Assembly: GCA_009761415.1 (NCBI GenBank)
Contig: QUOL01000004.1
Span: 2,418,001 to 2,482,000, forward strand
Reading direction: 5' to 3'
Length of the DNA: 64,000 nt
DNA from: Sarcomyxa edulis
Lineage: Eukaryota > Basidiomycota > Agaricomycetes > Agaricales > Mycenaceae
The position numbers and the translations under genes were made by a program. The notes beneath the pieces were generated by a model. It was not told where the DNA came from. It did not search any database and saw nothing but the letters and a program-made list of their open reading frames with translations. Shown here in pieces: positions 16,983 to 56,313 of the stretch; the stretch's first letter is position 1; each line of letters starts with the position of its first letter.

Positions 16983-19022
16983 CTACTCTAGCAGAGATAC
17001 TTCCTCCCCATCTTCGAGGTCTTTAAGAGCTGCCAGAATGATCTCCAACTCCTTCTCCAGCATCGCTTTCTGTTGCTGTTCGGCAGTTCGGTTCTCCCAG
17101 TAAAGATCATTGACAGTTAATCCGGTGGCTCTCTTGAAGGCCTGAACGACAAACGATCGTGTTCTAGGATCCATGCACTGTTCCTTCCATCCCTCCGTCA
17201 TCCCCGTCTTGGTCGAAGTGATAGTCCACGTTTTCCAAAAAAAGAAATCCGTGAGGACCTCCTCCTCGTCGCAACCACAATTCATCATCCCATCGGCAGG
17301 AATCTGTGGAGATAGTAATCTGGGACCAGGTACGCCAGTCACCATATATTCTCCCATCTTTTCACCGTCGTTTTCGCCGTCCATTGGATGTTCCTTCTTT
17401 GTTATCCCCTGGTGATAGCGACACATCGTGTTGCCCTTACCGGTTGTCAGGCAATGCATCGCAGTCTTTCGATTTGTAGTGGCCCCCTCGATAACAAAAT
17501 TTTGCACCGTTCGGATGCGATTCCTGATTGCCAGGGGAATCGGTACGAGTCTCTTCTCCTTTTGAGAACGAAGAAACTCCATTAACGCGTGCCTCCCTGC
17601 GACTACAGTACAATCAGCAACACAAAAATGCACGGTAATGCGTGCAGACTCACTCCTTCTCTCAATCTTCTGAGGCTCGGTAAGATCAAGCCATTTTTGA
17701 TACCCTAGTGATCATTGCTCTCGGTGAGCGCTCGTCTGATAGTTCAACTCGAATAGCTAACCTGATGGTCCTCTAGAACGCTTTGCCCTGGGTTCCTCAT
17801 CTAAGTCTTCCTCATCCTCTGAAATGACCTCTGACCGGCCGCGCTTAGCCTTGTCCTCATCGCCGACGATATTCCCGTCCTTCACGGCCTTCTTCGACTT
17901 ATCTGCTTTCTTTGCCTTCTTTCTCGCTTCCGTCTCCTTATCGTTCTTCGCCAGCCTCGCGTCGTCCGCCGCTTTCACTGCTGCGGCATCCTTCGCGTCG
18001 TTCGCAGCCTTCAAAACCGCAGCATCCTCCGCTTCCTTCGCCATCCTCGCGTCGTCCGCCGCTTTCACTGCTGCGGCATCCTTCGCGTCGTTCGCAGCCT
18101 TCAAAACCGCAGCATCCTCCGCTTCCTCCGCTATCCTCGCGTCGTCCGCCGCTTTCACTGCTGCGGCATCCTTCGCGTCGTTCGCAGCCTTCAAAACTGC
18201 AGCATCCTCCGCTTCCTTCGCCATCCTCGCGTCGTCCGCCGCTTTCACTGCTGCGGCATCCTTCGCGTCGTTCGCAGCCTTCAAAACCGCAGCATCCTCC
18301 GCTTCCTTCGCCATCCTCGCGTCGTCCGCGGCCTTCACTGCTGCGGCATCCTTCGCGTCGTTCGCAGCCTTCAAAACCGCAGCATCCTCCGCTTCCTTCG
18401 CCATCCTCGCGTCGTCCGCCGCTTTCACTGCTGCTGCTTCCTTCGCGTCGTTCGCAGCCTTCAAAATTGCAGCATCCTCCGCTTCCTTCGCCGTCCTCGC
18501 GTCGTCCGCCGCCTTCACTGCTGCTGCTTCCCTTCCCTCGTTCTCTGCCTTCAAAACCGCAGCATCCTCCGCTTCCTTCGCCATCCTCGCGTCGTCCGCC
18601 GCCTTCACTGCTGCTGCTTCCTTCGCGTCGTTTGCTGCCTGCTCCACTGGTGCCTCTGGCTGCGTCTCGGGATCCTTCTCAAGGGAACTAAGCATTTGGC
18701 GAAATTCGGGGGACAATAATTGTATCTGTGCTGAGAGTGCATCCTCCGCTGTATCGATTTCATTTTTAAAGCTTAAGCCTCTTGCCTGTCCTCCGTATTA
18801 GATACAAAGTAGTTTCCAGAAAGGTAGGTGCGTACCTCTAGCTCCTCCCGGCTTATGCGCCGAGGCTAACCGTAGCACAACTGCCAACTTTGCCTTCAAT
18901 TTCTCGACATCTGCCTTTTGTTGGTCTATGCTGTACTTGATGGCGCTGATTTTTTCTGGTACAATTTGGTCAGCTCTTAGTTGGGTCAGAACCCGGATCT
19001 GTCTAACCTTTAGCTGTTTCAT
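16983..19022 (-). CDS. Hypothetical coiled-coil protein with seven and a half 30-aa repeats
   Basis: No named family recognised. The N-terminal exon (19022 to about 18840) gives a helical segment (IKYSIDQQKADVEKLKAKL). The main exon (to 17760) carries seven full and one partial copy of an Ala/Lys/Asp-rich 30-residue unit (AAVKAADDARMAKEAEDAAV then LKAANDAKD). This is predicted as a long charged helix. A Lys-rich and acidic segment follows, with the basic patch EPRAKRSRGPSG. The last exons encode a 200-residue C-terminal domain with NCGCDEEEVLTDFFFWKTW and GWKEQCMDPRTRSFVVQAFK, ending at 16983. The mix of basic tracts and helices could suit a nuclear or chromatin protein, but that is conjecture. 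Confidence 0.65.
17935..18640 (-). repeat. 90-bp tandem coding repeat
   Basis: Seven full and one partial near-identical 90-bp units run from about 18640 down to 17935. Central copies are almost identical, pointing to recent unequal exchange or slippage. The opposite strand stays open for 325 codons only because of this period. Confidence 0.9.
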
Positions 19023-22882: not shown

Positions 22883-23453
22883 ATGCCCAAAAAATACGAT
22901 ACTGAGGAAGCTAGGAGGGCTGCGCGCTTGTTGTCCAAGGGTCGTTACTACATGCGGTACGTTTTTGTGCACTATTATGATGTCTTGACCGTGTAACAAT
23001 ATGATATATAGTAATCGAATGTCAGAACAAGAGAAAAGTCGCGAACGTTGGAGAAGGCGCACACGCCCTCCGTATACGCATGTGCGTAGCATCCTTGTTC
23101 ACGATGAACGGCCCTGTGGCTAATTTTCCAACTCTTAGAAGAATAAACTACTTTTCGATCGGCTCAAGAGTATATGGGAGGAGACCATTACTTTTTATGG
23201 CGGGGGCGAAAATGAGTGGTTGGCCATGGATTTTCGCGCGAAATCAATCATCGGCCTCCTAGAACCCATTGTGGTGATCGAGGACATCGAGGAGTCGTGC
23301 CACAGCGCTCTGGAGGCAGCATATCTCGCCAAAGAGATTATTGACAAGTTCCGCATCGACGCCTCGGGTGCAGATGAAGAGGGGAAAGACCGCCTGATAC
23401 TTGGCGGTGTGATGAGGACTGCGGCGCTAGGAGTAGATGTGCTAGACTCCTAA
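22883..23453 (+). CDS. Small basic-helix protein, 3' end replaced by LTR
   Basis: Three exons join in frame: 22883-22956, 23012-23081 and 23139-23453. The N-terminus is a basic helix (KKYDTEEARRAARLLSKGRY, then EQEKSRERWRRRTRP), as in short fungal proteins of the ARRxxRxxxKRYYxxN type, perhaps DNA-binding. The C-terminal half is helical (SIIGLLEPIVVIEDIEESCH, LEAAYLAKEIIDKFRIDA). The frame crosses into the left LTR at 23408, so the last 14 residues (MRTAALGVDVLDS after a Val) are LTR-encoded and the native C-terminus is missing. Confidence 0.6.
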
Positions 23454-25042
23454 CTATAGTTCGCCTCTAGGGGGTAAGGTGACGTTTTCTCGGAGGGGAT
23501 TTTACGTAGCGAGAAATCCTAATGCCCAATGACTTGTGTTTGGATAATGTGTCCGTAAAAACGGTGGTGAGGTGGGTATGAGATGATAAGGTGTAAGGTA
23601 AGCTTCGGACTTGTAGGTTCGTTCTCGGTAGACCGTTTAGAGGCTTCGGACAGCTATAGGCTCGTTCTTGGAAAACCTTCGAAGGCCTCGGACAGCTTTC
23701 GGAGAGCTGATCGATGTTTTGGACGGCTTATAAAACGTCTTTGGAGAGCTATCGAGGGCTTCGGACAGCTCTTGAACTGATTTCGGAGAGCTTCGAGGGT
23801 TTCGGACAGCTCTGGACTGATTTCGGAGAGCTTCCTTTGTTCCGGGAGTGGTACTGCCGACTGAATCAAGTCCTTTTTCTCTTGTTTTGACCGACTCCTG
23901 TAATCGTTCCTTGTCTCGGTTTCAGAAGTATGAGAAAGAGATAGAATTCCTATAGAGAGTGACTGGGTAGTTGGTCGATTCGGGTATGTTCCTCTGGTTC
24001 TCGTCCACACTGGTTCTATCTACCGTTCTCCATGTCCTATCCTACTTTATATATGAATTCCTTCCCTGTCCTTGCCTAATTCTTCACCCCGAGTGCCATC
24101 CCAAGGTCCCCGAGATCTCCAATGATGAAACAGATCCGGTATTGGTTTTGATGTGTCTGAACCTCGCTCAGTGTGAAAGGTTAGGGCCTGAGGTGTTTTC
24201 TGAAAGCGTTGCAAGGTGAATTTGTGAAGGGATGAAACATGTCCGAGTGAGCAGGATGATGGGGAGCTTCCGATAGATTTTTCCAAGATGCGACGGCCAA
24301 AGTTGTCCGAGAAGAGTGAATTTGATGTGGGTTGCTAGGCGGAGACCTGTAGTGTCTTTGTTAGCGGGCGATACCTCGCTTACAAGTGCTGTATCATGTG
24401 ATAAACACAGAGGGAAGAATATTCCGTAGCACCACTTGGTCAGGGTGAACGGAAGCCTTAACGAGGCGTCCAGATGCATGGAAAGGTGTGAATTGAGATC
24501 GCAATGTAAAGGGAATATGTCCGATTTGATAGGAAGAACAGCTCAGGGCAGCAAGCATCACGTTGGCGGTATGTCGACTGGTGGCAATGTTTTGTCGGTG
24601 AAGTATCTCTCGATGAGGTCTTCTAGAGGTGAAAGGGAACCTGCTGAAACGATTTGGGATCTGTCCGAAGGATCTAGGGGGCTGCGGAGAGGTGATCGAG
24701 TACATTGGGCCTTCGGTCAGGTGAAACGACGATAGGGAATTGGGTTCTGGCGGTAGATTTCCTTCGGAGAAGTTGTTCGTGTGTGATTTCAAGTATTCCG
24801 AAACGTTCTGAGACGTGACCGAAGGCGGGTTAGCATTTCGTGAGTGGATGAAGAGGCTGCTTTCGGGGAGGAACCGTCAAGTAGTGGGTACTTGGTGTCT
24901 TTCAGTGTCCGGTCATTCGAAAAGTAAGTTGTTTGTGGTAATATCACCAGTATCTCTGTAGTTAGCTATGTCTGGGGAGTCGCATAAGAGTAGGTTGTTG
25001 TATAGTTGTCGATTCCTTGGCTTGGATGCTGGCATCCTCACA
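23408..25042 (+). repeat. Left long terminal direct repeat (1635 bp)
   Basis: Starts TGTGATGAGG and ends ATCCTCACA, so the ends form TGTGA/TCACA inverted tips with TG...CA, as in LTRs. It matches 33278-34913 along its whole length by eye; the one difference I noticed is cttgg versus ctgggg near the 3' end. Between about 23640 and 23835 it contains tandem words of the type ttcggacagct and tttcggagagct. Short frames occur in it but none looks coding. Confidence 0.9.
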
Positions 25043-25065
25043 CTTCCTCCTAACTTTTAAATATC

Positions 25066-25079
25066 GACCGTCCCCGGTC
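25066..25079. promoter_or_regulatory. CCG-N4-CGG inverted repeat
   Basis: GACCG-TCCC-CGGTC lies just inside the left LTR, upstream of the first internal gene. The inverted CCG/CGG half-sites resemble Zn2Cys6 protein targets. Binding is inference. Confidence 0.3.
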
Positions 25080-25149
25080 GATCATCCGGAGGGCAAACAC
25101 AACAACGTGTCCGTGACCGAAACAGGGCAAGGACGACCGGCCAAGGACC

Positions 25150-25156
25150 TATAAAT
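25150..25156 (+). promoter_or_regulatory. TATA box, internal paralog 1
   Basis: tataaat lies 52 bp upstream of the ATG at 25202. Equivalent boxes precede the other four paralogs: tataaa 26201, tataaag 27837, tataaag 28520 and tataaac 29330. Confidence 0.6.
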
Positions 25157-25201
25157 TCCAAGGTTAAGACAGCCAGAGCTTTCCTGAAAGCAACAAGACA
25201 A

Positions 25202-25984
25202 ATGGATCCCATAGCAAAAGAACTCTTCTTTACGCGCTGCCTCGATCTAGACGGGATAGATGGCGATATTACAATGGCGACTTTCCTCGGATACCTGCGT
25301 AACAATATCCGTCCCATGGTTCACCTAGTCGTCAGCTGCATTTTTCAGGATGCTGTGGCGGACGTTCTCCTTCCGGAGTTCTCAAGTCACGGTGTATACA
25401 CGCTGAGGAAGCACGTTAAAATCTTGTGCCAGCACATGGTGAGTGCGTGTGTGCCTTTCAGGGGGTCTGTGCTAATTGCGAAGGTTAAGGTATTCATGCT
25501 CAGACTTAGATGGGTACTGAAGGGGAGGTGCATGGACGATACCACGGAGCCGTTTCCCAAGGAAGCAGTGACCGCCGTTTACCAGGTGCAGCGGTGCGTC
25601 CACGTCGTAGGGTTTTCCGGGGATCAGGACGAGGACGAGGCACATAAGATCGACGTTATCTTGTACTTCATAGAAGAATATGCCCGCCGATCGACATTCG
25701 GCGTCGCTTTCGATTACATCGAGGCGGACCCGCGTGGTCGGTTCCATGCACATGCCGTGTTGAAGAAGCATCCATACAGCGGTCCCAGGGTACATCGAGA
25801 TGGTACGATTAGTACGGACAGGGGCAACAGCCTCGAGGGGGAAGAAAATCCGGCTAACAACGAAGACGAAGGCATATCCGTCATAAGTATTGCAACGGAC
25901 GACGAGGACGAAGAAATGGAGGTGGCCGAGGTAGAAAGGGCCTTGTCCGGTAAGAATTCTGACACTTTAGCGGTGCGGCAATGA
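25202..25984 (+). CDS. Element-internal paralog 1, unknown function
   Basis: No known family recognised. First of five related genes in tandem. The N-terminal part (MDPIAKELFFTRCLDLDG) leads to motif 1, FLGYLRNNIRPMVHLV. Motif 2 begins PFPKEAVTAVYQVQ and includes VVGFSGDQDEDEAHKID. Motif 3 (FGVAFDYIEADPRGRFHAHA) is shared with paralog 5. A 45-nt in-frame stretch after CACATG (gtgagt...gcgaag) is probably an intron, in the same place as in the paralogs. The C-terminus is acidic (ATDDEDEEMEVAEVE). There is no signal peptide. Roughly 245-260 aa. Confidence 0.65.
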   Translation: MDPIAKELFFTRCLDLDGIDGDITMATFLGYLRNNIRPMVHLVVSCIFQDAVADVLLPEFSSHGVYTLRKHVKILCQHMVSACVPFRGSVLIAKVKVFMLRLRWVLKGRCMDDTTEPFPKEAVTAVYQVQRCVHVVGFSGDQDEDEAHKIDVILYFIEEYARRSTFGVAFDYIEADPRGRFHAHAVLKKHPYSGPRVHRDGTISTDRGNSLEGEENPANNEDEGISVISIATDDEDEEMEVAEVERALSGKNSDTLAVRQ

Positions 25985-26235
25985 GCTGATCGGAGAGGTA
26001 CAGTCCAGCCACTCGCGAGCTTGGCAACACACGGGGCATTTCGCCTGCATTTGGAGACGTTATCCGAAGAGGAGAGGAACGGTTTGATTGGCGGGGCGGC
26101 GATTATCGAACAGGGACTAAACAATTTGTCGGGGGCATGAGGCGGCAAGAAGAGGGAAGGGTTCGGAGAGGTGATCGAGGGCATGCAGTCATCATGTACA
26201 TATAAACGACGAGTCCTTTCGTGTTGAAAATCGAA

Positions 26236-26822
26236 ATGCCTGCCCGCAGTATGCAAATGGCTTGCGAGAGACTCTGCGACTACTTCATGACGCTGAACGT
26301 CCCGTCCTTTATTCGACCCGTCTTCTATCCGCACGAGGGCTTCGATGGATTCTTCCGCAAACGCCTTCGTATGATGTTCGGTGTCATCCAGGCGACGCTT
26401 CCCCATAGGGTGACAGCATTTCCCGATGACACCGATAGCGTTATCGGGCAGTATACGCTGTCGAGACGGCTTATGCGGTTTTTCGTCGAGAACGTTGTAC
26501 GGGCTTCCACCGTTTTTCAGCGGGGCAACGCAGAGATACTAAAAAAAATCCTTCTGCGCAGGAACTCATCGTTGCATACCGTCAGCGGGCCAGGACCGAT
26601 GCCAACGCCGCCGAATTTAAAATTCCTTCAGAGGTATCCCGTATGATGGAGTTCAGTCTTATCGTTTATGACAAGGTCGGATTTCATGGGGACTGGGCCC
26701 TCAGCAGCGTCGGTCAGAGGAGGGAAATGCTTCAGTCACTAAAAGATGAGGCCGACGTTAACGCTTCATTGACTGGCGGGGCAAAGGAGTATCCCGAATT
26801 TGAGGACCTGGTGTTCTGGTAA
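26236..26822 (+). CDS. Element-internal paralog 2, unknown function
   Basis: Second member of the array. Exon 1 from ATG 26236 (MPARSMQMACERLCDYFM) has motif 1 as FDGFFRKRLRMMFGVI. An intron of about 40 nt begins near 26492 (gtacgg) after FFVENV. Exon 2 reads KKNPSAQELIVAYRQRARTD, then motif 2 as IPSEVSRMMEFSLIVYDKVG followed by FHGDW, and ends YPEFEDLVFW at 26822. An unspliced frame instead runs to 26646, so the join decides the protein. Motif 2 is clear only after splicing, which supports the model. Confidence 0.6.
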
Positions 26823-27885
26823 GCAGGCGCCGTCGGTCTCGTTCTTTGGGCCCCTCAGAGGGATACTAATAGTCGGAAATTTGCATTTCAGAACGCACGC
26901 GTAGCGGGGAGGCTTTCCTGGATGTGACCGAGGGGGTTTTTGTCGTCGTTGGTACTTTAATGGGTAAACACTCCTTTCGCGTGCCGTGTTCAGAGATCTT
27001 GTAGTTTATGGAATGCACTGTCAGTCCGGAGGGCAACAACGGTCTCGGGCAGCCTCCCAACCTCCTTTACAAAGGGTATCGATGTCCGATGATTCCACCC
27101 GCTGTGCGCAGACATTTGAATCGCGGACAGTTCGTAACTCCGTCAGCGGCTCTTGATGAGAGGAAAGTTCAGAGGGGAGGCGAGTGAGATGAGAACGGAG
27201 AGAGGTTATCAATGCTTTCAGAGCTTTTCTCCTTTACAATTTCGCTATATCGCTCAGTGGCCTGGTCATCATTTCGTTCTTCCGTAGCCTCGCCGTTATA
27301 CGATGTCAGGATGATCTTCTCGTCCCGTTCAATAACTCGGCCGGCGCAAGATGCTGTTCTCTTCTTCAAGATGATGCAGTTGCATTTCTACAGCGCTCAA
27401 AGCCGACAGCCGTCAAGCGCCAGTGGCTTCATGAAGTCATGGCCGTTTAGATCGAGGTGGCTTGCGTCCTGATCGTCGTTGTTCTTACGGCGCAGTTGAG
27501 ACTGTGCGTGTTAATACGTGTGCGGGTGATGTGACCGCGATCTTGCGAAATCTTTGCGAAGGAACGAGACACGGCGAAGAGTATCAGGTGAGGCAAGGAC
27601 CTGCGACAATAGTCGAAAAGATGGTCCCAGGGTAGCGGCACGACGTGGCGGCCAGCTCGTGTTCTTTTGCATGTGGCATTTGCAACCGTTCCGTGGGCAT
27701 TTATACCGAAGTACAGGCATTTTTTACTGCTTCTGATAAGGCATGGTCCGGAAAATCCAACGGTTAACAGTTGCCGCACAGAGTCCGTTCGGACACCTCT
27801 TATCGGTCCGAGACGTCAGTCCTAAGTCCGATGAGGTATAAAGAACGCCAGCTGGCGCAGGGTAGCCATCGATATTCCGGCCAAA
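26823..27885. other. Intergenic gap between paralogs 2 and 3
   Basis: About 1.06 kb without a clear gene. Frames on the minus strand (27169-27369, 27447-27779) lack motifs. A perfect GTCCG-TT-CGGAC palindrome lies at 27783-27794, and more tccg words precede the TATA box at 27837. Confidence 0.45.
27783..27794. promoter_or_regulatory. CCG-N2-CGG palindrome upstream of paralog 3
   Basis: GTCCGTTCGGAC is a perfect 12-bp palindrome 43 bp before the TATA box. It resembles a Zn2Cys6 inverted half-site. Its role is inferred only. Confidence 0.35.
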
Positions 27886-28481
27886 ATGTCGCATGTCGTT
27901 AGTTCATCGTTTACTCAAGCTCTCCGAGACGAGTTTTTGTCGTATGCTCATCCTCCTGAAGTTCTTGCCGGGGATTTCGCTCCTACCGAGGGCTTTACAA
28001 ATTTCCTTCGGTTCCGCCTCCGCCCTATGATGGAGATCGTCGAGCGGGGGTACGCGGCTTATCTTATAACGAGTTCCCCGAGAGACACCGTTGAACCAAT
28101 CATATGGAGCGAGACGAAGGGCTGGTTCCGCATCGTGTTGGATCATTTGGTAGGCGTCCGTGGTTCACTCGGTGAGCTTCGGAGTGTTAACCTTACGTCT
28201 TCTAGGATGCCATTCTACGGTTTAGGGATAGGGTGACGGCAATTGGCCGAGGAGACGAGGCCGTGGTTCCGTCAGAAGCGTTGCGCCTCGCAAGCATGGT
28301 GCAGCTATTCCTTATCCATCACGGAGTTGAGCTCGGGTACGATGAAGATGTACTTGTGAAGAGGAAGGATTTAACGAAGGAGTTCCTTTGGTCTATCGTC
28401 CCTGTAATGCACCGAGAGGCAGTTGCCGTGGAATTTCCGGAGTTCGTGATACGGTTGGCAGGGGAGGGTACGGGCAAGTAG
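27886..28481 (+). CDS. Element-internal paralog 3, unknown function
   Basis: Third member. Exon 1 (27886 to about 28147) encodes MSHVVSSSFTQALRDEFLSY, then motif 1 as FTNFLRFRLRPMMEIVERGY. An intron (gtaggcgtcc...tcttctag) ends at 28204. Exon 2 opens DAILRFRDRVTAIGRGDEAV and carries motif 2 as VPSEALRLASMVQLFLIHHG with VELGYDEDV next, then KRKDLTKEFLWSIVP and EFPEFVIRLAGEGTGK. About 180 aa. It aligns over its whole length with paralog 2, including the PEF near the C-terminus. Confidence 0.65.
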
Positions 28482-28566
28482 AAGGGGTGTCCGATAGCTG
28501 AATAGCGCGATATTTTTAGTATAAAGAGGGTGAATCAATTCCTCCGTACAGGTCACCGCAGAGCCC

Positions 28567-29285
28567 ATGAAAATTATGGAACCCCTACACCAAGTCCTTT
28601 TGAACACTCTTGCCCAAGAGGCAGCAACGTTCGATATCCTTGATCGTGACGGAATGATTCACTATCTCAGGTGCCTCCTGCGCCCCGCTGTCGGCCTCGT
28701 TGCCGATTTTATATTCCGTGAACTCGGGCCCGATGGCTACTTCGTAGCTTTAACTGGTCGCGAGAGGGTTCCCTACTACTGCAATGCGCAAATCGTGTTG
28801 CTCCTCGCGGTACGTTGGTCTAAACTCGACCCTTAGCGATCTCATTGTTTAACGGGTTTTCACTTGATCGGTAACAGGTCCATTTCCACAGCCAGTGGCA
28901 GGAGCTGAACAAGCAGGACAGGCGTTTATACATGATTCCGTCCGAGATGAATAGAACGATTAGCCATTTGCGCTTGATTTGTCGGGCTGTCCGAATTCAG
29001 CCAGCAAGCCCCATTCATTGGGAGGTCGAAGCCGTCCGAGCTCTTACCGAGCTTAGCATACGCGCCCTGGCAGCTTACGCGTCGGCTGAAGATGCCTTCG
29101 ATTGCCCGGAGTACGAGAAGCCCGGGGATGCCGCGTTGGAAAGCGCGATGACCAGATCGATCCGTCTCGATCTCCTCGAAAGGGTCGTGCCTAAGCGCGT
29201 TGTCGTAGTCGAGGGGGAGTCCGAAGGTGCAGGATATAGCGACGCGGAGGACTGGCCAGGGTCGGAGGAGGAAACGACGGAGTAA
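28567..29285 (+). CDS. Element-internal paralog 4, unknown function
   Basis: Fourth member. The first exon (MKIMEPLHQVLLNTLAQEAA) has motif 1 as MIHYLRCLLRPAVGLVADFI. The intron gtacgttgg...ggtaacag ends at 28878. The second exon begins VHFHSQWQELNKQDRRLYM, followed by motif 2 as IPSEMNRTISHLRLICRAVR, and ends in an acidic tail (GYSDAEDWPGSEEETTE) at 29285. The unspliced reading stops 8 codons into the intron. About 215 aa. A TATA box stands at 28520. Confidence 0.62.
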
Positions 29286-29386
29286 AGTAACGCTCCCAGA
29301 ATCATATGCCACTTATTGTAGTCTGCATATATAAACCTCCCCGAATCGTTTGCTCTGATCCTTAAGTCAGTAAAGTTCCATCAACG

Positions 29387-30322
29387 ATGTCCTTTATTCT
29401 CCGTTTGTCTGCAAATCGCTTTCCCGAAAATCCCCAGGATCCCGACCTCGAGAATGAGAGGTCTCCGACCACCATCTGGTCTCGGTCAATTCGTAGCCTC
29501 CTAGGCATCGTTCATCTCTCCGTTAATGGAAGGTGTCCGACGGACGTTCCTCTCGAGGAAAGGCTCTGGGTCAGGACCCTCCTCACCCGGATCGTCAATT
29601 ACGTAGTAAGCGGCTCGCTTGTTTTTCCTTCATCGTTCCTCTTTCAACATCGTCCGTCCAGCATCAAGCTATGAAGCTCCGAGCCTCCGAAGCCATTAAA
29701 TCAGGTTCTTGGGATACCATTCCAATTCCCGCTCAAGCCACCACTACCGTCGCCATGCTCGAGTTCTTTCTGAAGAACTTTGGTTTCGAGGGGGACTACG
29801 TTGCGGTCAACGTTAGGAACGTTGGGTATCTTTTATCGTCGGTGAAGAGCGAGATGGTTGCCCAGGCGCGTTTTACTTATTTCTTGGTTCTCATCCTTCG
29901 TTGATTTATTTCTTTTCGTCCTTTTCTAGGTCGGATACGTCGGAACCGCCCTGGATTTCGATGGATTCGAGTCGTCCGATGCGTACAACGGGTACGGCGT
30001 GCTTCCCGAAATGAAGCAGCAGCAAGTCAATGACCTGCTCAGATCGCGGGCGGCTTTCGTTCCCAATCCTATTCTTCCTGCTCCTCAATATCCTCTTGTC
30101 CCCTTCGTCGCGAGGTTTCCCGTGAAAGAGGGCTTTGAAGAGGTCCGTCTTCATGGAGACGTTCCCGATCCTCGTCTCGGAGGCCTCCACCAAGTTCATT
30201 TCGGCCCTGGAACTTTCGGACAGGTAGATCCTCGGAACGCTGCGACGCGTGGGAGAGGTCGCGGAGGGGCAAGGGCTAATCGTCGAGGAGCTGGAGCGGT
30301 ACCTGATACTACCATTCTGTAG
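29387..30322 (+). CDS. Element-internal paralog 5, unknown function
   Basis: Fifth member, three exons: 29387-29605, 29662-29865 and 29930-30322. Motif 1 is TIWSRSIRSLLGIVHLSV. Motif 2 reads IPAQATTTVAMLEFFLKNFG then FEGDYVAVNVRN. Motif 3 in exon 3 is YVGTALDFDGFESSDAYNGY, as in paralog 1. The tail is Pro-rich, then RGRGRGGARANRRGAGA, an RGG-like segment that could bind nucleic acid. The second intron appears to be GC-AG (CCCAG|gcgcgt...cttttctag), because no GT donor restores the frame. About 271 aa. Confidence 0.62.
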
Positions 30323-31140
30323 ACCGTCCGATGAGTTTCCGATTCCTTGTTTCTGTAAAATAAATGCCTGATAACAGGCGCATAATTCGTTCATAATTTT
30401 GCATAGTGTGAGACCCAGCGTCTCGGTCTCCTCGTAAATCTGTAAAACGTTGTGAGTTGCATACTTTTAATCATATCAGCGCATAATTGGGTTCGGTCTG
30501 CGTCAGTAGATCCGCTGGCCAGCCAGATCTACCGTCTCCGAACCCCGCATAGTCGTTTTCTTCCAATTTCTTTCGATCGTTTGTCGTCCGTGGTCTTTTC
30601 GCAGTATTTCGTCACTGTGTACAGGAAAGCCGTCGCTCTCTATCCGTTATGGGTTTATGACTCCCATGGCGCAAACTTGTCCGTTTCGTGCTTGCTTTAA
30701 TCGTTCGTTCTTCTTATTGACTTCCTGGGTACCGTTTAACCCTTAATTTTTTTTACGTTCGATGACTTCCGTTATTTCATTTCCAGTCGTGCTTATTTGC
30801 CTGGATATGCTTGCTCCGATGACTCTTATCTCCTTGCTTGTCATTCTCCGGTCTCGATTTTCTTCGTCCTTCGATGTGATCGAGCTCGATCTCCTTTAGG
30901 CTGTCCGATCCTTCGGTTACAAGTGGATGTTTGGCATCGGCCTCCCCTTTGTTTGGTACCGCCGCGAGATGCGAAGCGCGATTAGATCAACACGTGCCTG
31001 GAGATACCCGAAACGAGATCGCCGAGGTATGGAATCACTTTCGAACTTTATCGATCAAATCTCTCTCGCCCTCTGCCCACCGTCTTCCAGCATCTGACGC
31101 GCCTCGATCACCTCTCCCATAACTCTCCAGGACCACTCCA
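30323..31140. other. Upstream region of the Zn2Cys6 element gene
   Basis: About 0.8 kb, T/C-rich, with no coding motif. It probably holds the promoter and 5' UTR of the next gene. A sixth diverged paralog is not evident. Confidence 0.4.
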
Positions 31141-32900
31141 ATGGCTCTTCCTTCGTCAACGTCTTTAGCCGCCCCCGACTTCACGTTCTCCGAGGCGTTC
31201 AATCTGGCACTATCCGGTGGTCTTCCTACAACAACGGTCCCAGCACAGGTCATGGCCTCAATGAAATCGTCGCGAGGAATTCCCGGTACTGAGTATGGTT
31301 TGGTCGAGGAGCTCCGACCGACAACCGCTAGAAGTCGCGAGGAGCTCCATTCAGTTTGTGTGGCATTCCTGCACATTGGGTGGACGCCCCCTTTTCCTCC
31401 AGCTTTTGATGAATTCCCTACATTGGATGACGATATTATCGGCTTCGTACGTCAACTCGTCGTTGTCCCCGACTTCTTTCTAGAGGCCCTTGAGTACAAC
31501 CTTCCTCCTCGTCGCACTCCCCTCTTCCTTCCCGTGAAGGAAGAGACTCCTGCTCCTTGGTACGGTAGCTTCGAGAAGATACTGGGAACGTCCGAGTTTC
31601 CCGACTTATCCGAGGACGAGATCGACGAGCTTGGTAAGTCAGTTTTTCGTTTTCTCGTTCTCCATTTACTGACTCCGATCCATTCTTTTTTAGCCGGAGA
31701 CACCGATTCTGGTCCTAGCGGCAACGCTGTAGTTCACGCGACAAACCCACCCCTAGCGACCACCAGTACCTCGTTTGTTGTCAATCCCGAGAGTTCGGAA
31801 GGAGACGCTCCGCTCCCCGATATGAGAGTCAGGCATACTCGGGGAGTTAAACGCGCAAGGGAGGAGTCTGATACGGACGCCGTTCGTCCTCGTATCGTAG
31901 TTCTTCCTCCCTCAGCGACTCGCGCGGTTCCCATCAAGAAGCCCCCCGGTATCTCTTCGAAAAGAGCAGGTCGTATCTTGAAGGCTCAACAGCCATACCT
32001 TATTCGTCACCTGGCACGTTTTTCTTTTCCGCTCTTCCTTCTAGTACTAAAAACCCATTTTATAGGACTGGCGTTGCAGCAGATGCATCAAGCACAACGT
32101 CACTTGTAACGGGCATCGTAGTCATGCCTGCGACAGATGTTTCGCTCGGAGAACCGGCTGCGACATTCACGAGGACGAAGGCCTTCTCGATCTCTCTCGC
32201 GCCATCGAACTGGGGGAAATTGTTATTGCCCCAAAAAAAATCGCTCCCGTGCCCGAGACTTCCAGCAGTCTTCCCGGTCCTTCGGATATCAGCGGGCAGC
32301 GGGAAATGCCAACGAGGGATAAAGGAAAGGGAAAGGCTCGCGAGGTTTCACCGACCGTTGTCGAGGAGTCCCGATTCGCGCCTTTAAAAATTCGTGGTGC
32401 GTTTTCTATTTTACTTTTTAAAGATCGCGTTCTTTTTGAGTTTACCGCTTTTTCCCTTATCTGTAGTGCCCAGGCTTGTTGGTGGTCGCCATCCTGCAGA
32501 GCCAGCATCCAGTGGTGCCTTGTCCGAGGTTCCAATTTCTTTCGGCGAGATGCGCATGCCCGAAACCCGTAGGACTGCCCCTCAACAAGAACCCACGAAT
32601 CGGTCCGAGGTTTTCGATGGTACGGGTATCGTTGAGCCATCCGGCACCCCCAGACCCTCCTCGATTAATCCCTCGTTCGTTTCCCGGAGTCAACGGGTCG
32701 CAGGTCGTCGAGAAAAATGGAAGTCAGTGGTTGACGGATTGAAGGTTGGGATACTTGACGGTGCTGCTGGCGTCGAGGTTTTTGGTAAGCTGGCCCCCGT
32801 TATCCGTGATCAATTGTCGGGCGTTATCGATGCCGCCATTTTGCAAGTTGAAGATCAATACGGGTTTATTTTTGAGGAGGAGCAAGCCGACTCCACGTAA
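31141..32900 (+). CDS. Element-internal protein with central Zn2Cys6-type cluster
   Basis: Four exons: 31141-31633, 31694-32013, 32066-32396 and 32467-32900, about 525 aa. The N-terminal half is Pro/Glu-rich (FLHIGWTPPFPPAFDEFPTL). A basic segment follows (RHTRGVKRAREES, KRAGRILKAQQPYLIRHL). Exon 3 opens with the zinc cluster RCSRCIKHNVTC, seven residues, then CDRCFARRTGC. This fits C-x2-C-x6-C-x7-C-x2-C-x6-C exactly. The rest is disordered, ending in a helical piece (IRDQLSGVIDAAILQVEDQY). The intron before exon 3 has a GC donor (CACCTG|gcacgt...tttatag). The protein may bind DNA at CGG half-sites, or be a structural Zn protein of the element. Function is unproven. Confidence 0.65.
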
Positions 32901-33277
32901 ATAGTTGTTCGGTTCGGAAGTAATATTTTCGTTTCCTATGTAATATTATAAGAGAATAATCCACGATTTGTTTCTTTATTTTTGGACTCCGAGAGACGTA
33001 TATCTTGTTCTAATATAGTCGTTGGGAGCGGCCTTTTTGTGGATAGGGTTGAGAAGTAATTCTTTTATGCGTGATGTCTACGTTTGGAAGGAAACGTCTG
33101 GAATGGAAATCAATCGAGATTTTATTGACGATATATCCGATAGTAACGATGATTCGGACGGAGCGATTCCTTTGGGGGGGGGGGGTCGTTTTTCGGATAA
33201 TGGATGGATAATTGCGGCGTTCGGAAAGCCTGTGAAGAGGATTGTTTTAGTCCAAAACCCTCGCGGTGGGCTCCAGT
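32901..33277. other. 3' internal end of the element
   Basis: AT-rich 3' UTR-like stretch with an 11-13 nt G run at about 33174-33186, 90 bp before the right LTR. No polypurine tract directly abuts the LTR. Confidence 0.4.
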
Positions 33278-34913
33278 TGTGATGAGGACTGCGGCGCTAG
33301 GAGTAGATGTGCTAGACTCCTAACTATAGTTCGCCTCTAGGGGGTAAGGTGACGTTTTCTCGGAGGGGATTTTACGTAGCGAGAAATCCTAATGCCCAAT
33401 GACTTGTGTTTGGATAATGTGTCCGTAAAAACGGTGGTGAGGTGGGTATGAGATGATAAGGTGTAAGGTAAGCTTCGGACTTGTAGGTTCGTTCTCGGTA
33501 GACCGTTTAGAGGCTTCGGACAGCTATAGGCTCGTTCTTGGAAAACCTTCGAAGGCCTCGGACAGCTTTCGGAGAGCTGATCGATGTTTTGGACGGCTTA
33601 TAAAACGTCTTTGGAGAGCTATCGAGGGCTTCGGACAGCTCTTGAACTGATTTCGGAGAGCTTCGAGGGTTTCGGACAGCTCTGGACTGATTTCGGAGAG
33701 CTTCCTTTGTTCCGGGAGTGGTACTGCCGACTGAATCAAGTCCTTTTTCTCTTGTTTTGACCGACTCCTGTAATCGTTCCTTGTCTCGGTTTCAGAAGTA
33801 TGAGAAAGAGATAGAATTCCTATAGAGAGTGACTGGGTAGTTGGTCGATTCGGGTATGTTCCTCTGGTTCTCGTCCACACTGGTTCTATCTACCGTTCTC
33901 CATGTCCTATCCTACTTTATATATGAATTCCTTCCCTGTCCTTGCCTAATTCTTCACCCCGAGTGCCATCCCAAGGTCCCCGAGATCTCCAATGATGAAA
34001 CAGATCCGGTATTGGTTTTGATGTGTCTGAACCTCGCTCAGTGTGAAAGGTTAGGGCCTGAGGTGTTTTCTGAAAGCGTTGCAAGGTGAATTTGTGAAGG
34101 GATGAAACATGTCCGAGTGAGCAGGATGATGGGGAGCTTCCGATAGATTTTTCCAAGATGCGACGGCCAAAGTTGTCCGAGAAGAGTGAATTTGATGTGG
34201 GTTGCTAGGCGGAGACCTGTAGTGTCTTTGTTAGCGGGCGATACCTCGCTTACAAGTGCTGTATCATGTGATAAACACAGAGGGAAGAATATTCCGTAGC
34301 ACCACTTGGTCAGGGTGAACGGAAGCCTTAACGAGGCGTCCAGATGCATGGAAAGGTGTGAATTGAGATCGCAATGTAAAGGGAATATGTCCGATTTGAT
34401 AGGAAGAACAGCTCAGGGCAGCAAGCATCACGTTGGCGGTATGTCGACTGGTGGCAATGTTTTGTCGGTGAAGTATCTCTCGATGAGGTCTTCTAGAGGT
34501 GAAAGGGAACCTGCTGAAACGATTTGGGATCTGTCCGAAGGATCTAGGGGGCTGCGGAGAGGTGATCGAGTACATTGGGCCTTCGGTCAGGTGAAACGAC
34601 GATAGGGAATTGGGTTCTGGCGGTAGATTTCCTTCGGAGAAGTTGTTCGTGTGTGATTTCAAGTATTCCGAAACGTTCTGAGACGTGACCGAAGGCGGGT
34701 TAGCATTTCGTGAGTGGATGAAGAGGCTGCTTTCGGGGAGGAACCGTCAAGTAGTGGGTACTTGGTGTCTTTCAGTGTCCGGTCATTCGAAAAGTAAGTT
34801 GTTTGTGGTAATATCACCAGTATCTCTGTAGTTAGCTATGTCTGGGGAGTCGCATAAGAGTAGGTTGTTGTATAGTTGTCGATTCCTTGGCTGGGGATGC
34901 TGGCATCCTCACA
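33278..34913 (+). repeat. Right long terminal direct repeat (1636 bp)
   Basis: Direct copy of 23408-25042. It ends ...CCTCACA at 34913 and is followed directly by gcgctagaactcgagg, which belongs to the alpha-kinase gene of transposon copy A (equivalent to 51389 in copy B). The near-identity of the two LTRs implies recent insertion or recent gene conversion. Confidence 0.9.
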
Positions 34914-35570
34914 GCGCTAGAACTCGAGGTTGAGGGGGGAAGTATGGCTCGTGTATGACCAGGCAGAGCGACAGACGGTAGCACCAAGCTTGAGACACGA
35001 CTGTGATTTCCGCTTCCTGGAGCTATATAGTGATGAGGTCCAAAAGAACGACTAGGTAGTGGCGGCGGCGGCATTAGAGAGGCGTCGTGACGACCAACAG
35101 CCTGGATTGGATTTGAAGGTACTGTATCATGCAATCTGTCAATACAAAATATGAAGTATGAGCACATTTACCTACATCCACGTTGTGCGAGTATATTTTG
35201 GCGGTATATGGAATTTTTATCGATGATAGGCCGTTTGACTAGAGCCTGTGAGTCTGGGATATCGTTGTAGCGTGCTATAGTATGGCTTGTCTCAGTCTTA
35301 AGGAGAGCTTAGAAAAGGGAACGCACACTCACCGTTGTTGCGGTGGTCGGATTGTTGATCCAAGTCAGGCCGCCTTCGAGTTGTTTGTTTGCTGCGATAG
35401 TAGTGGTAGCATCTATCGCAAACGTCTCGTCCGTCCTCTCCTGGAACATTACTGTGCAAGTGGTGGAGTTTGGTACCAGGAGGATAAAACTTTTGCTCGC
35501 ACTGGTCTCGCCCGCAAATCACATCTTGGTCTGAGACAACTTTTGGAGTGAAATCAGCAGAGTACGACAT
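34914..35570 (-). pseudogene. Alpha-kinase 5' fragment (copy A)
   Basis: Carries the N-terminal Cys exon (MSYSADFTPKVVSDQDVICG) and following exons, identical to copy B apart from a Val for Ala change in SRVSSLVLPSV. It stops at 34914 where the LTR begins, so the kinase domain is absent. It cannot encode an active kinase. Confidence 0.88.
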
Positions 35571-35789
35571 GAGTGAGACTCGGGCCTCAGGATAACTTGC
35601 CAGGAGAGACACAGAATCTGATTCACGAAAGAATATTTGTAGTCGGCGTATCGGCAGCCTAGTAGAAAAAAAAACTTAGTTCTAGATGACGAGGCAAGGT
35701 CGAACAGATTTATGTAACGGTCACCTTGGTATCCCACTTGTACAAGCAACGTTACTACTAGATGTAGACAAAAAATGAAACAAGTGTTT

Positions 35790-37610
35790 CTAATCTGAAA
35801 AATCGGCATACTCCCTCAGATCCATATCGTCCGGCTCTAGCTCCCCTTCGCTACCTTGGTCCAGAGGTGGTGGATTTTCTAGACCACCCATATAGATGTA
35901 ACCGTGATTGCCTAGTACATTATCACCATTCCGAAGCTCGCGTAAGCCGTCGAGCAGAAGAACATCCTCGTCCTCAATATCTGGGGCTGCGATGGCAGAA
36001 ACGAGATCGGGATCACGAGGAAGAGCATGGAAAGCGTCCAAGAGGCTGGAGTATATGTGCCAGAAATTCTTCGATGAGATCACAGGAGACCCGAGATTGG
36101 AATACAGCATATGTGCCTGCACTTCAAAGGCAACTGGAACGAGGCGGAAGACGGGGTCAGTTGTTGGAGCCCACTTCTGTTCCATTTCGTCGAATAACTC
36201 GGAAGGCACAATGACCTGCGCGTGGATAAGCATGTCAATCATATTCACTGAGACGGTAGCAAAACTTCTAACCTTGAAGTCTTTTGAATTGTATAGGTGG
36301 GGTTTCGCGTAGATGAGATCAGGGATACCAGATGGAAGAATCTTGTTTTTATCCGCGCGGCGAGGGCTGGAATTGAAGCGCTGCATCCAGGCATCAAGTT
36401 CGGCTTGTAGCCATGGGATTGCAAGATACCGGAAAACAAGTCTAGTAGAACGAGGAGATAATAAGCCTGGGCCATGATACGAGAACATAGACTGCGTACT
36501 TTTCTAGTGGGTTGTCATAATCGTATAGACCACGATTGACACCGTCATCCAGAATGTTTTCGAACCCCGGAGTGAATTGCCAACGCAGCTGGGACCATGC
36601 AGCTTCCGGTTTGACGTTGTTTTTTGACCGACACCACCGATGTTGACGTGTACCAGACAGCGACGGGTCCAGACGATGACGAATTTCGGTGTGCATATTG
36701 GCTAAAACATTGTTTTCCGAGCCCGGGTCACTTTGCGAGACAAGTGGGACACCTGTGGAAATGCAATTGAGTACCGACATCAAAATAAACGAATAAAACA
36801 ATCTTACCGCCAGCCTTACGACCAGCCTCAGCGTAATAGCTCGCGATGAGTCGCGGATTCCTGTTTGTCCACCAGATCTTTAACCATGCGATTCGTCCGC
36901 AGAACGGGTCAAGACCCAGATGCAGACGAAGTCCAAATCTTTTCCACTTGTCATGCTGGTCGACAGTCAGAATGTCCATGACTCCCGCAGCCCAAAACCT
37001 CTTCCTCTTAAAGCGCCGTCCTTTGCGATATTTGACGGCCTCGGGTTCGGTCAATTTGAGATATTCCGCGACTATTTTCCTGTCGATGTACACATTTAGA
37101 GACAATGATTTTTCGAGTTGGGAGGGAAAGAAATACTACATACTCTGGGACTTTCATCGAGTAATCTTGACGAAGAGTTGTGACCATTTGCCGGGCGCCC
37201 ATGGAGGGAAAACGATCACGTATCTCTGCGATGAAAGGTGCAATGGAATAGAAGGTCTGCTTCTGTTGTCTCGTGCCTTTCAGACCCCATTGAGTTCGAA
37301 GGCGCTTTAACGAACTGACACTGTAAATTGGCAGCAATTGGTCAACCACCTCTACTCAGGCCAGCACCTCAGATGCGATAGCGAGAACTCGCCTGAGGCC
37401 ATACTTCGATTGATCTGATCGAAATGATCCTTGGTATGTTGCACTATTTCAGGATCTGTCAGACCGAGTCTCCAGTAGTAAAAAATCGTGTCCTTGATGT
37501 CGTCGTCTGGAGCTGATCAAGGTTGACTCCCGTGAGTTGTGCTGACTGCTCGTTCAGAAAGAAAGTCAAGATCACGCACGACGAGGCTTATGTTGGTTTC
37601 CACGGGCCAT
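35790..37610 (-). CDS. Integrase-core transposase (copy A)
   Basis: Same gene as 48693-50513 on the other strand, with the same exon layout. It differs from copy B by a visible Arg to Trp change (SQLRWQFTPG) caused by C to T at a CpG (36582). All frames are open, so it could still be expressed although its element has lost one end. Domain details are given under copy B. Confidence 0.85.
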
Positions 37611-37857
37611 ACTGGATACAGATGACCCGCAGAGGAGGATAGATTCAGTGGTAGATAATGCCTTTCCTTACGAACTGTGGAGAGGAATAGTTGAAAACGT
37701 GTATTGTGGGTGGGACTTTCAGGGTGTCTCACTTGAAGAACTCGACTTAGAGAATCAGAAAGTATAATTGATAGAGTTTTCGGGGTCTCTGTTGTTTTGC
37801 CGCGTCGGCATCCTCAAAACGATCGAAAAACCAAGCTGGTCTTTCCCTGTTGCCATA

Positions 37858-40429
37858 CAGCCGATCTTCGAGTTACGAGCCTCACTTACTGACCTGTATC
37901 TCTTTTGTAGATGTTACTGTCAACTATGAATCAGGGACCACTCCCACATTGACCGCATCCCCGTATCTAAAGTCGAAACTAGAAATTTGCTACCGCACCA
38001 TGCCATACACGCACGAAGATGGTCGTCTGCGGCCGGATCTGCGACTTGGGAACAGCGATGCAGCTGTACGAAAGGTCGCATCCGTTGTGGCCTGGTTTGA
38101 AGGCATGGCGGGGCTGGCCAGGACGTAAGAAACGCGGCTCGACAATCTTGCAATTGTTGGTACACCTATCTGCATCCTATCGTTCCTACTGCCAGTTCTT
38201 CACTTCACGATGGTATCAAGTTTTGGAAGGCCTCCCTCGAGCTCATCGACCCCTCTACTACCATTGAAAACGAAACCACGAGTCCTACGGCTCTCTTCTG
38301 CACGATCTATTCCCCCAACGTCCCGTATGTATCCGAAACTACCCTCAAGCCTCGTGTCCTCGTCGAATAAACATGTCTTGTGGGTCGCTCAGAAAATGCA
38401 AACCTTGGATCAAGCCCCTGTATTATGCCCCGACATGTGACCACCGAGACATCTCAACAACAATGACCTTCGAGTAGTAGCCGATCAAAGAAATGTGCGA
38501 AAGGTCTCTCAAATTTGCCGGTACCACGTCTGTCTCGTGTTCGATGGCAAGAACCGCAAGGCAGATATAGACAACATGCCAATGCGCTGGATCGAGCTCA
38601 AGCTCTGACAGTGTATCGTAATTTTGTTTTGGCTATTGTTCTGAGGGTCGTACTTCTAAGTACAAGAGAAAGAGATCTGATGTATAGCTTGATTTATGGG
38701 TTTCCCCTATCACAAGCATGTACGTAGCGTCGTGAATGCAAGACGCACTCATGCATGTCCGCCAATCCCTGCGCTCTCGTCGCCTAGACACGGGTGCTTT
38801 TTCTTTCAGTCCGAACAGAACTGTGCAAAGCTGAGAATAGATCCAGTCATTTATCTGTTTCGAGCCGTTGGTTCCTAGTTGGAGGTATTGAAGACATCTG
38901 GAAGGCACGAGGGTTGTTGCTCGGATATGTTTTGATGATTACTGCGTGCTTGATTGGATGTTATGGTCGGCGTGGAAAAACGCATGAGCTGGAGAGAAGA
39001 ACCACAAAAAGCACCGAACACCGATTTGCTTCCGAGATAAGTACTCGAGTCCCAGAATCCCAAGTCGAGACTGGAGAGAAATGGATATATGACGGTAGTC
39101 GGTGAAAAGGCCGAGCAGCGATGTTCAAGTTCCGCTGGTCGAACATAGGGTGACTCCGTCGTCCTGTGAAATTCCAAAGAAAACTCGCACGTACTTTCCG
39201 TGCATTGATAAGATTCAGCATATGCATCAACGCCAGCTCGGGGAGAAGGCAGGCAATAATGCGAATTTAAAAAAAAAGCAAGGCACGCGTGGGTATGGGC
39301 GCTTCGTAAATGATGATTGGAACTACACGAGGTCGAGGAGAGTGGTTCTTCAGCGATTGAGATTCCCGAGAGTGCTCTGATATCATTAATGCGTTTTTGT
39401 TCCATTTTTATTTGAAAACAAAGGAAGGACTGACTGACCGCATCTGTCTTGTTGCATGTCCGTGTTGAACACGAGGAAGCATAGCCTTCGACCACAATAA
39501 AGATGAACATGGTCACAAAATCCTTGCACATTTTCTCCCTTCTCCCTTCGCAGTCGACCATGACATCTCCACAAATTGTCGAAGATCTTCCCAAAAAATG
39601 CACCAGAAAGACGCCGAAACAGCTTTCCCTAACACCTAGGGCAATCCAGAAGAGAGGATATAGAGGCAACCTCCGGGGACACCTGGTGGAGACGAGGAAT
39701 ATACTGATAGATCAAGACAGAAGAAGGCTCTTCAAGCCACGAAGGGACTGGAAAGACTCGTTAGAGGGATTAGCGGTAGAAGGTGAGCTTCATCATCTGC
39801 CTCGGAGTTGTGGCGTGATGACAAAGGTCGAAACGCGCAGGCAATGGCCGCATGAGGGTGTTGGGAGATCAAGCCATCGAGCAGAAAGGGCCGAGGACGG
39901 AGTTGGTTTCGGTGCTCAGAGCACTGAAGCTCGAGGTCACGGATGCGGATGATTCTGTAGTCGTCATGCAGGCAGGTGAGGCGGATGATTTTTTTTTGAG
40001 GCACTGATTGATACGTACCGTTTATGAAGCAACAATGTTCTTGAAGTCGTTGGTAGCACCCAGGACATCAGGATCGACCCCCAACGTCGAAGAAACAGGT
40101 CAGATGGCGCGTGAGTACCTTGAGATTCGAATCCTGCATCCGGAAAAGGCTACTGATCTCATCGACCAGTAGAAAAGAGCGTCGACAATGACGACGGACG
40201 AGGGCATGGCGAGGAACGCGACCGTCATGGCCTCGTAGGGACGACCCAGACCCCAAGTAAGTTTCGATAAGTCCTGTCCAAGAACCGTAGATTAACACCG
40301 CTTTCGATATAGATCCGAGCTACATGCAGGGCTTGGGGAACACTACCACTCCCCTTCCATGGGGCCCCCCGCGTAAGTTGTCCATGACGAAATAGACAGA
40401 CAACAATTGCTGACCTATATAAACCCGCA
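37858..40429. other. Region with little recognisable coding
   Basis: About 2.6 kb. An open stretch at 38161-38370 (+) ending FCTIYSPNVPYVSETTLKPR could be the last exon of a gene broken by the transposon, but I cannot name it. Long mirrored frames at 38875-39669 (-) and 39102-39380 or 39503-39952 (+) have no motif. No RNA gene was recognised. Confidence 0.35.
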
Positions 40430-48440: not shown

Positions 48441-48445
48441 TCCCG
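48441..48445. other. Left target-site duplication TCCCG
   Basis: tcccg directly precedes the left terminus of copy B. The same five bases (56314-56318) follow its right terminus. Confidence 0.55.
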
Positions 48446-48526
48446 TATGGCAACAGGGAAAGACCAGCTTGGTTTTTCGATCGTTTTGAGGATGCCGACG
48501 CGGCAAAACAACAGAGACCCCGAAAA
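48446..48526 (+). repeat. Left terminal inverted repeat, copy B
   Basis: Reads TATGGCAACAGGGAAAGACC, then agcttggtttttcgatcg, then a GCCGACGCGGCAA word and GAGACCCCGAAAAC. Identical to the end of copy A and about 80% identical to the right terminus at 56230-56313. Confidence 0.8.
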
Positions 48527-48692
48527 CTCTATCAATTATACTTTCTGATTCTCTAAGTCGAGTTCTTCAAGTGAGACACCCTGAAAGTCCCACCCACAAT
48601 ACACGTTTTCAACTATTCCTCTCCACAGTTCGTAAGGAAAGGCATTATCTACCACTGAATCTATCCTCCTCTGCGGGTCATCTGTATCCAGT

Positions 48693-50513: not shown

Positions 50514-50732
50514 AAACACTTGTTTCATTTTTTGTCTACATCTAGTAGTAACGTTGCTTGTACAAGTGGGATACCAAGGTGACCGTTACATAAATCTGTT
50601 CGACCTTGCCTCGTCATCTAGAACTAAGTTTTTTTTTCTACTAGGCTGCCGATACGCCGACTACAAATATTCTTTCGTGAATCAGATTCTGTGTCTCTCC
50701 TGGCAAGTTATCCTGAGGCCCGAGTCTCACTC

Positions 50733-56229: not shown

Positions 56230-56313
56230 AGTACTCGGGGTCTCTATCGACTTGCCGCGTCGGCAATCCCGAAATGGTCGAAAAACCGAGCTGGTCTTTC
56301 CCTGTTGCCATAG
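56230..56313 (-). repeat. Right terminal inverted repeat, copy B
   Basis: Read inward on the minus strand it starts CTATGGCAACAGGGAAAGAC and keeps GCCGACGCGGCAA and GAGACCCCGA words at the same spacing as the left end. It is followed by tcccg (56314-56318). Confidence 0.7.

Follow-up and report, generated by a model that had tools for sequence, protein, structure and literature searches.

Evidence for a non-autonomous Ty3-type LTR retrotransposon copy with an antisense accessory gene module in Sarcomyxa edulis

The 64,000-nucleotide stretch of Sarcomyxa edulis DNA analysed here (assembly GCA_009761415.1, contig QUOL01000004.1, positions 2,418,001 to 2,482,000 of the forward strand; in the following the window) contains at positions 23408 to 34913 an element that is bounded by long terminal repeats (LTRs) and carries six genes. 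We read this element as a member of a Ty3-type LTR retrotransposon family in which an accessory module lies antisense to gag-pol, and as a copy that is non-autonomous (the probability is roughly 0.88 for its anatomy and its non-autonomous status). The module consists of an array of five paralogous genes (g1 to g5) and a gene for a Zn2Cys6 protein. In contig coordinates the copy lies at C34:2441408-2452913, where C-labels denote, here and below, contigs of the same genome.

The direct repeats at 23408-25042 and 33278-34913 (TGTGATGAGG...CATCCTCACA) begin with TG, end with CA and differ by one mismatch and one gap, and between them lie six genes, all on the plus strand, just as a previous reading of the sequence alone (the sequence-only reading) had noted. 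A primer-binding site (PBS; TGGAGCCCACCGCGAGGG; 33258..33275, minus strand), complementary to the terminal 15 nt of tRNA-Lys followed by CCA, is found 2 nt inside the right repeat, and a polypurine tract (PPT; AGGAGGAAG; 25043..25051, minus strand) adjoins the left repeat, with the same edge in another copy, C34c. When the whole genome was scanned with a T-loop pattern, the tRNA 3' end matching the PBS was present at six exact sites and the reversed control at none; the three of these six sites that were read are all intron-bearing tRNA-Lys genes (anticodon CTT in two and TTT in one). With the PBS at the right and the PPT at the left LTR, the element is oriented along the minus strand, which puts all six genes antisense to it. 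In retroviral orientation the 5' LTR is at 33278..34913 (minus strand; 99.9% identical to the other LTR) and the 3' LTR at 23408..25042 (minus strand), copies of which with 90-98% identity occur elsewhere in the genome. In agreement with the sequence-only reading, which had noted the absence of pol genes, the genome search listed no gag-pol DNA of the family within the window copy, which is therefore most probably a non-autonomous derivative. A plasmid collection searched with 23408-31400 gave no match.

The complete copies of the family, a unit of approximately 17 kb, are exemplified by C36 (17,253 bases) and C40a (17,513 bases). Both have, antisense to the array, a gag frame of 878 amino acids and, overlapping it in another frame, a pol frame of 1280 or 1270 amino acids. 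The gag frame of C36 contains a CCHC knuckle (recognized by eye) and an aspartic protease (Pfam). In its pol frame Pfam finds RT_RNaseH and Integrase_H2C2, RVT_1 itself not being listed, and the best match in the PDB is Ty3 Gag-Pol (E 5.9e-34), with foamy-virus (PFV) integrase also among the matches. Chains of Ty3, other RTs and PFV match its stretches for reverse transcriptase (RT), RNase H and integrase, which follow one another in this order, and the frames of C40a have the same layout. The order in the complete copies is 5' LTR, PBS (tRNA-Lys), gag with protease, pol (RT, RNase H, integrase), antisense Zn2Cys6 gene, antisense g5 to g1, PPT and 3' LTR. The family thus has the TG...CA LTRs, the host-tRNA PBS and the target duplication of Ty3/Gypsy elements (Metaviridae), with which it also has the PPT, a gag with protease and the order RT-RNase H-integrase in common.

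The genome-wide numbers of LTR and array loci are lower bounds: the LTR query gave at least 71 matching pieces and the query with the five-gene array at least 26 full-length and 4 partial loci at distinct places; protein searches with the array genes added one further partial array at C25:295-4371. Near-complete gag-pol of the family was found at 12 loci in the genome search, and a comparison of coordinates places the array on the same contig and on the strand opposite to gag-pol at 11 of them (the array is partial at C25:6713 and some 9 kb distant at C12 and C13). The twelfth locus, C17, is at a contig start and ends before an array could show, and it has the Zn2Cys6 gene. None of the 12 near-complete gag-pol loci, of which C17 meets the contig end, showed an element with the same LTR and with pol but without the six genes, the finding that the sequence-only reading had named as speaking against it. 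The mapping of further repeat copies that it had proposed does find other arrays between the same LTRs, but the same LTRs also flank gag-pol. A new class of pol-less elements is therefore ruled out, since full copies carry the same module; what is left of the undescribed class that had been suggested is a cargo-bearing, non-autonomous copy.

In the eight other complete copies that were read, 4-bp target duplications are present without exception and all have the form NCGN, which suggests that integration may occur at CpG-centred sites (C34b, an interval between two neighbouring copies and not an element, is excluded from this count). The window copy has no matching duplication: the left 4-mer is GCGG (23404..23407) and the right one GCGC (34914..34917), both of which fit NCGN. 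The right flank opens a 2945-bp stretch that is an inverted repeat of 48445-51389, and beyond the GCGC there the sequence differs from the left flank of the window copy. Recombination between two insertions would be the simplest reading of the unequal 4-mers, because the sequence corresponding to the right flank continues at 51389 unlike the left flank.

The Zn2Cys6 segment of the window copy is present at 16 loci, 14 of them near-complete, and the array lies alongside in all 14. These short copies have the same LTRs as the full copies. Gag-pol DNA was found in one of the 14, namely C8, where 149 bp of the gag start are retained beside the LTR, a remnant to be expected if the copy derives from a full one. 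The target duplications of the short copies C34c, C6a, C6b, C2 and C40b are intact, and their LTR pairs differ by 0, 0, 0, 1 and 2 substitutions, respectively. Given the shared LTRs, the 4-bp duplications and the LTR pairs with few or no differences in other short copies, the natural reading is that the short copies would be mobilized in trans. To this extent the proposal of mobilization in trans is supported; the array itself, however, belongs as an accessory module to an autonomous retrotransposon and is not a selfish cluster that hijacks one. Some loci of the family have been altered further. One short copy contains a 13.8-kb insertion with several frames within its Zn2Cys6 gene (C40:1104553-1118335). 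Nested in one array copy (L021, C2:1489001-1499000) is a 12.3-kb insertion, another Ty3-type element with a chromodomain, which has a single frame of 2708 amino acids and a separate one of 898 amino acids (878 amino acids of the latter were scanned and gave no Pfam match). On C11, part of a short-type Zn2Cys6 segment (668580-669929; 99% identity to that of the window copy) abuts an LTR in opposite orientation (669929-671560), a rearranged junction.

The array genes are all on the plus strand: g1 (25202..25984; exons 25202-25438 and 25484-25984; 245 amino acids), g2 (26236..26822; exons 26236-26493 and 26562-26822; 172 amino acids), g3 (27886..28481; exons 27886-28149 and 28206-28481; 179 amino acids), g4 (28567..29285; exons 28567-28809 and 28878-29285; 216 amino acids) and g5 (29387..30322; exons 29387-29605, 29662-29856 and 29930-30322; 268 amino acids, with an RGG-rich tail). 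All five splice models are open and in frame, and in each a phase-0 intron follows residue 73-88, always within one region of the alignment. In shuffle tests seven of the ten pairs reach z values of 3.4-14, by which all five genes are linked in one divergent family; the pairs g1-g2, g2-g4 and g4-g5 are not significant on their own. The five genes are thus paralogs, as had been proposed. The same tests revealed no match between g1-g5 and the tested N-terminal part of the Zn2Cys6 protein. Kinship of the array proteins with gag was considered and not found (z -1.0 to 0.6 for g1-g4 and 2.2 for g5). Outside the family described here and a sister family (see below), the genome search found no copy of g1 except for one weak match (E 0.085).

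On the plus strand between 25043 and 30322 the motif TATAWA occurs solely upstream of the five array start codons, 35-59 nt away (25150..25155 for g1, 26201..26206 for g2, 27837..27842 for g3, 28520..28525 for g4 and, as two overlapping matches, 29328..29335 for g5). Of the six start codons five have the motif at most 70 nt upstream, compared with a background of 3-4% (chance about 6e-7 at 4%); there is no TATAWA within 70 nt of the start of the Zn2Cys6 gene. Judged by these motifs, the array genes would be transcribed from their own TATA promoters.

Among eight aligned arrays (C2 excluded), 127 coding and 96 non-coding sites are variable, and 98 of the 127 coding ones are third positions (p 6e-24); changes in length between copies are in introns or intergenic. 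The ratios pN/pS, calculated from uncorrected proportions of non-synonymous and synonymous differences, are 0.06, 0.02, 0.08, 0.16 and 0.10 for g1 to g5 in seven copies without internal stops (C34c, whose array is identical to that of C34a, and C2 were excluded), and 0.04 for gag and 0.05 for pol in one copy pair. This shows constraint on the protein sequences of all five array genes. The LTR pairs are free of mismatches in six of nine copies (the window copy has one, plus the gap, C2 one and C40b two), and the family is young and recently active. The array of the pol-deleted C34a is identical to that of the short C34c, and between C40a (full) and C40b (short) the arrays diverge by 0.06%, from which it follows that short and full forms exchange sequence.

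The sixth gene (31141..32900, plus strand) has at least four exons (about 31141-31633, 31694-32000, 32066-32395 and 32467-32900, the boundary of exons 2 and 3 being uncertain). Its designation as a Zn2Cys6 gene in the sequence-only reading was apt: the window protein has the cluster CX2CX6CX7CX2CX6C, and the GAL4-type pattern CX2CX6CX5-12CX2CX6-8C is present in all nine copies searched, with a Pfam Zn_clus score of 14.1 bits, which is under the cut-off of 21. About 17 loci have the full-copy type of the gene and 16 the short type. The pol-less form carries its own class of Zn2Cys6 alleles. The zinc cluster is identical in five of six short copies, clearly different in C34a, C40a and C36, and 43-48% identical between short copies and a gag-pol copy. 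All four exons are open and under purifying selection in five short copies (third positions 329/542), among which the synonymous difference is about 0.45, compared with 0.04-0.06 for the array genes. Of the full-copy type, eight loci are 100% identical to C40a over the exon used. When C36 and C40a are compared in steps of 250 bases, they differ by 0.4-6.0% in the array, by 12-33% in about 2 kb over the Zn2Cys6 gene, by 1.2-9.2% in pol (falling towards gag) and by 0.8-2.8% in gag.

The array is shared with a sister family. Sister elements, whose gag-pol matches at 72-76% over long stretches, have g1-g5 collinear and on one strand at eight loci found by protein searches (on C2, C4, C9, C12, C23 and C34 and twice on C16), with about 27-55% amino acid identity and matches broken near the same intron places; g3 gives the weakest matches (E 3e-4 to 0.04), and its assignment depends on where it lies. 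At a further sister locus, on C5, g5 alone was found. At all eight array loci the same contig carries the sister pol on the opposite strand. The distance from pol to g5 is about 4.8 kb on C9, C12, C23 and C5 and at both C16 loci and longer on C2, C4 and C34. Because collinear array and opposite-strand pol recur in the sister family, the accessory array is an inherited part of this retrotransposon lineage.

These findings can be joined in the following mechanism. The window copy and copies like it would move on gag-pol supplied by full copies. The antisense placement would allow a retroelement to carry spliced genes, since introns lying on the opposite strand stay in the genomic RNA. The accessory genes would serve the element as regulators of its expression, its copy number or its silencing by the host, with the Zn2Cys6 protein binding DNA; for this step, the weakest of the mechanism, we see about even chances when it is taken alone, and some role of the array in regulation for the element is probable.

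It should be noted, however, that several observations weigh against our interpretation. The TATA motif was picked for testing after the sequence had been inspected. The motif TCGGA, tried as a binding site of the Zn2Cys6 protein and rejected, is enriched in the element (7.0 versus 2.1 per kb) and rich in the LTR, yet gag-pol coding DNA has 6.3 per kb; because it is also rich in gag-pol, it is poor evidence for a binding site (beside gag-pol in C36 it is scarce, 0.5 per kb). None of g1-g5 belongs to a significant Pfam family, g4 having a single sub-threshold match (E 0.11), and no usable fold was predicted (mean predicted local distance difference test, pLDDT, 43 and 50 for g1 and a relative of g2). 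In the public protein set g1-g5 have just five relatives, whose aligned parts are 77-97% identical to g1, g2 or g5, and searches at E 1 and E 10 found none for g4 and the Zn2Cys6 protein. The Zn2Cys6 match of C36, C13 and C11:661148 shifts frame and has stops between the zinc cluster and the C-terminal part, and that of C1 has one stop; such changes in the full-copy type may be a break or an unmodelled intron. The genome search also showed that not every array is intact, g4 having a stop at C25:2928-3185 and g2 being broken at C12:2616147-2616726, and it did not find the Zn2Cys6 gene in the sister family.

That the window structure is an artefact of assembly or annotation could be suspected from the unequal 4-mers GCGG and GCGC, but this mismatch fits recombination between two insertions, the 26 full-length array copies are at distinct places and the target duplications are intact in all eight other copies read, so that hardly any weight can be given to the suspicion. 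The array could also be a cluster of host genes that was recently captured by an LTR element and is of no use to it. Its genes do look like host genes in having introns and TATA boxes of their own, and captured cellular genes are discussed as one source of additional open reading frames (ORFs) in the available parts of a publication on such ORFs (PMC7264820). Such passengers are very improbable, however, considering that g1 is absent outside the two element families (bar the match with E 0.085), that the five genes stand in the same order in the sister family at 27-55% amino acid identity and that the constraint on the array is like that on gag-pol and not relaxed. A different matter is whether the pol-less copies form a separate lineage, which would parasitize the full element and be defined by its Zn2Cys6 allele, or arise now and then by deletion. 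The 14 near-complete short copies have one organisation, with the array in all of them, and their Zn2Cys6 gene is constrained, its zinc cluster being 43-48% identical to that of the gag-pol copy; but short and full arrays differ by just about 2%, the identity of C34c with C34a and the 0.06% between C40b and C40a mean that modules are exchanged, and one short copy keeps 149 bp of gag. The two possibilities appear evenly balanced, and a separate lineage would modify, not replace, the interpretation as a Ty3-type copy with an antisense module.

Two further ideas concern what the genes do. Anti-silencing factors are carried by some plant DNA transposons, and the accessory proteins may, by analogy, counter silencing of the element by the host. 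Constraint within the family together with wide divergence from the sister family (27-55% amino acid identity) could fit an arms race, but neither homology nor a fold speaks for it and pN/pS within the family is low rather than raised, which makes the idea a rather unlikely one. Temperate phages keep repressor alleles by frequency-dependent selection. The antisense Zn2Cys6 gene might similarly be the element's own locus of immunity or self-recognition, at which frequency-dependent selection keeps old divergent alleles while recombination homogenises the rest. The peak of divergence between C36 and C40a on this gene, the large synonymous difference and purifying selection among short copies and the separate allele class of the pol-less form would be compatible with this; the stops that interrupt the aligned frame in some full copies and the zinc cluster that hardly varies among short copies count against it, and we regard it as rather unlikely. 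Since neutral persistence of old alleles would look alike, selection for Zn2Cys6 diversity is to be taken as a hypothesis and not as a result.

Several neighbouring features of the window are recorded here. The 2945-bp inverted repeat (34914-37858 and 48445-51389) is 99.9% identical, and its inner 78 bp, also present at 56235-56312, recur as paired inverted ends on C37, C39 and C2. From its sequence 48445-56312 looks like a unit of DNA-transposon type, and 34914-37858 like a second copy cut exactly at the edge of the LTR element; no clear target duplication was seen. Within this unit is an alpha-kinase-like frame (52104-53150, plus strand). The window also contains a 90-bp tandem repeat of 7.7 copies that is open in several frames (17946-18640), an array of imperfect 115/148-bp repeats (12187-13336), a CxC4 cysteine cluster associated with KDZ transposases (14485-15606, minus strand) and a tandem pair of NmrA-like genes, approximately 73% identical in DNA (45325-46246 and 47013-47911). 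A Fungal_trans domain marks the host as fungal, and the KDZ-associated cysteine cluster perhaps as an agaricomycete.

Large retrotransposon derivatives (LARDs) have LTRs, PBS and PPT, lack gag-pol and are described as non-coding. The window copy likewise has LTRs, PBS and PPT without gag-pol, but it differs in its six open, constrained genes. Boty-like elements of Botrytis, which are fungal LTR retrotransposons, were reportedly described by Zhao et al. in 2011, in a paper whose title speaks of one additional antisense gene, brtn. The case is taken up in a further publication (PMC8365987), and neither an array nor a Zn2Cys6 gene is noted in the parts available. According to the parts available of the respective papers, plants are an established case of antisense ORFs lying between pol and the 3' LTR, and there is at least one such case in a fungus (PMC7264820, PMC11963269, PMC8365987). 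For example, the plant Gypsy element Retand (also Grande and RIRE2) has antisense ORFs at this place; as far as these excerpts go, the set of one paper lists 104 antisense ORFs, with the TRP28 protein in nearly every cluster, and introns are not mentioned, whereas here there are six spliced genes, five of them tandem paralogs. A Pfam search of g1-g5 and the tested part of the Zn2Cys6 protein gave no match to TRP28 (PF04195). LTR retrotransposons of bdelloid rotifers, from another host group, have additional captured ORFs in common with the family, to judge from the part of the paper available (PMC5408684). In the literature searched, mostly titles and abstracts, neither a fungal or multi-gene antisense case beyond brtn nor a six-gene spliced module was found. 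What appears to be new is therefore the extent: five tandem paralogs and a gene with a zinc cluster, every one of them containing introns, within a young Ty3-type family of a fungus.

Extra antisense genes of LTR elements have long been known, and their roles are still given as undetermined in the part of the literature available to us (PMC7264820). The nature of such an element stays hidden when it is read on the wrong strand. In the S. edulis family the genes are numerous, spliced, strongly constrained and, by sequence, TATA-driven, two element families have them in common, and they are present in young copies both with and without gag-pol, which makes the role of antisense genes testable; the peak of divergence at the Zn2Cys6 gene shows where to look.

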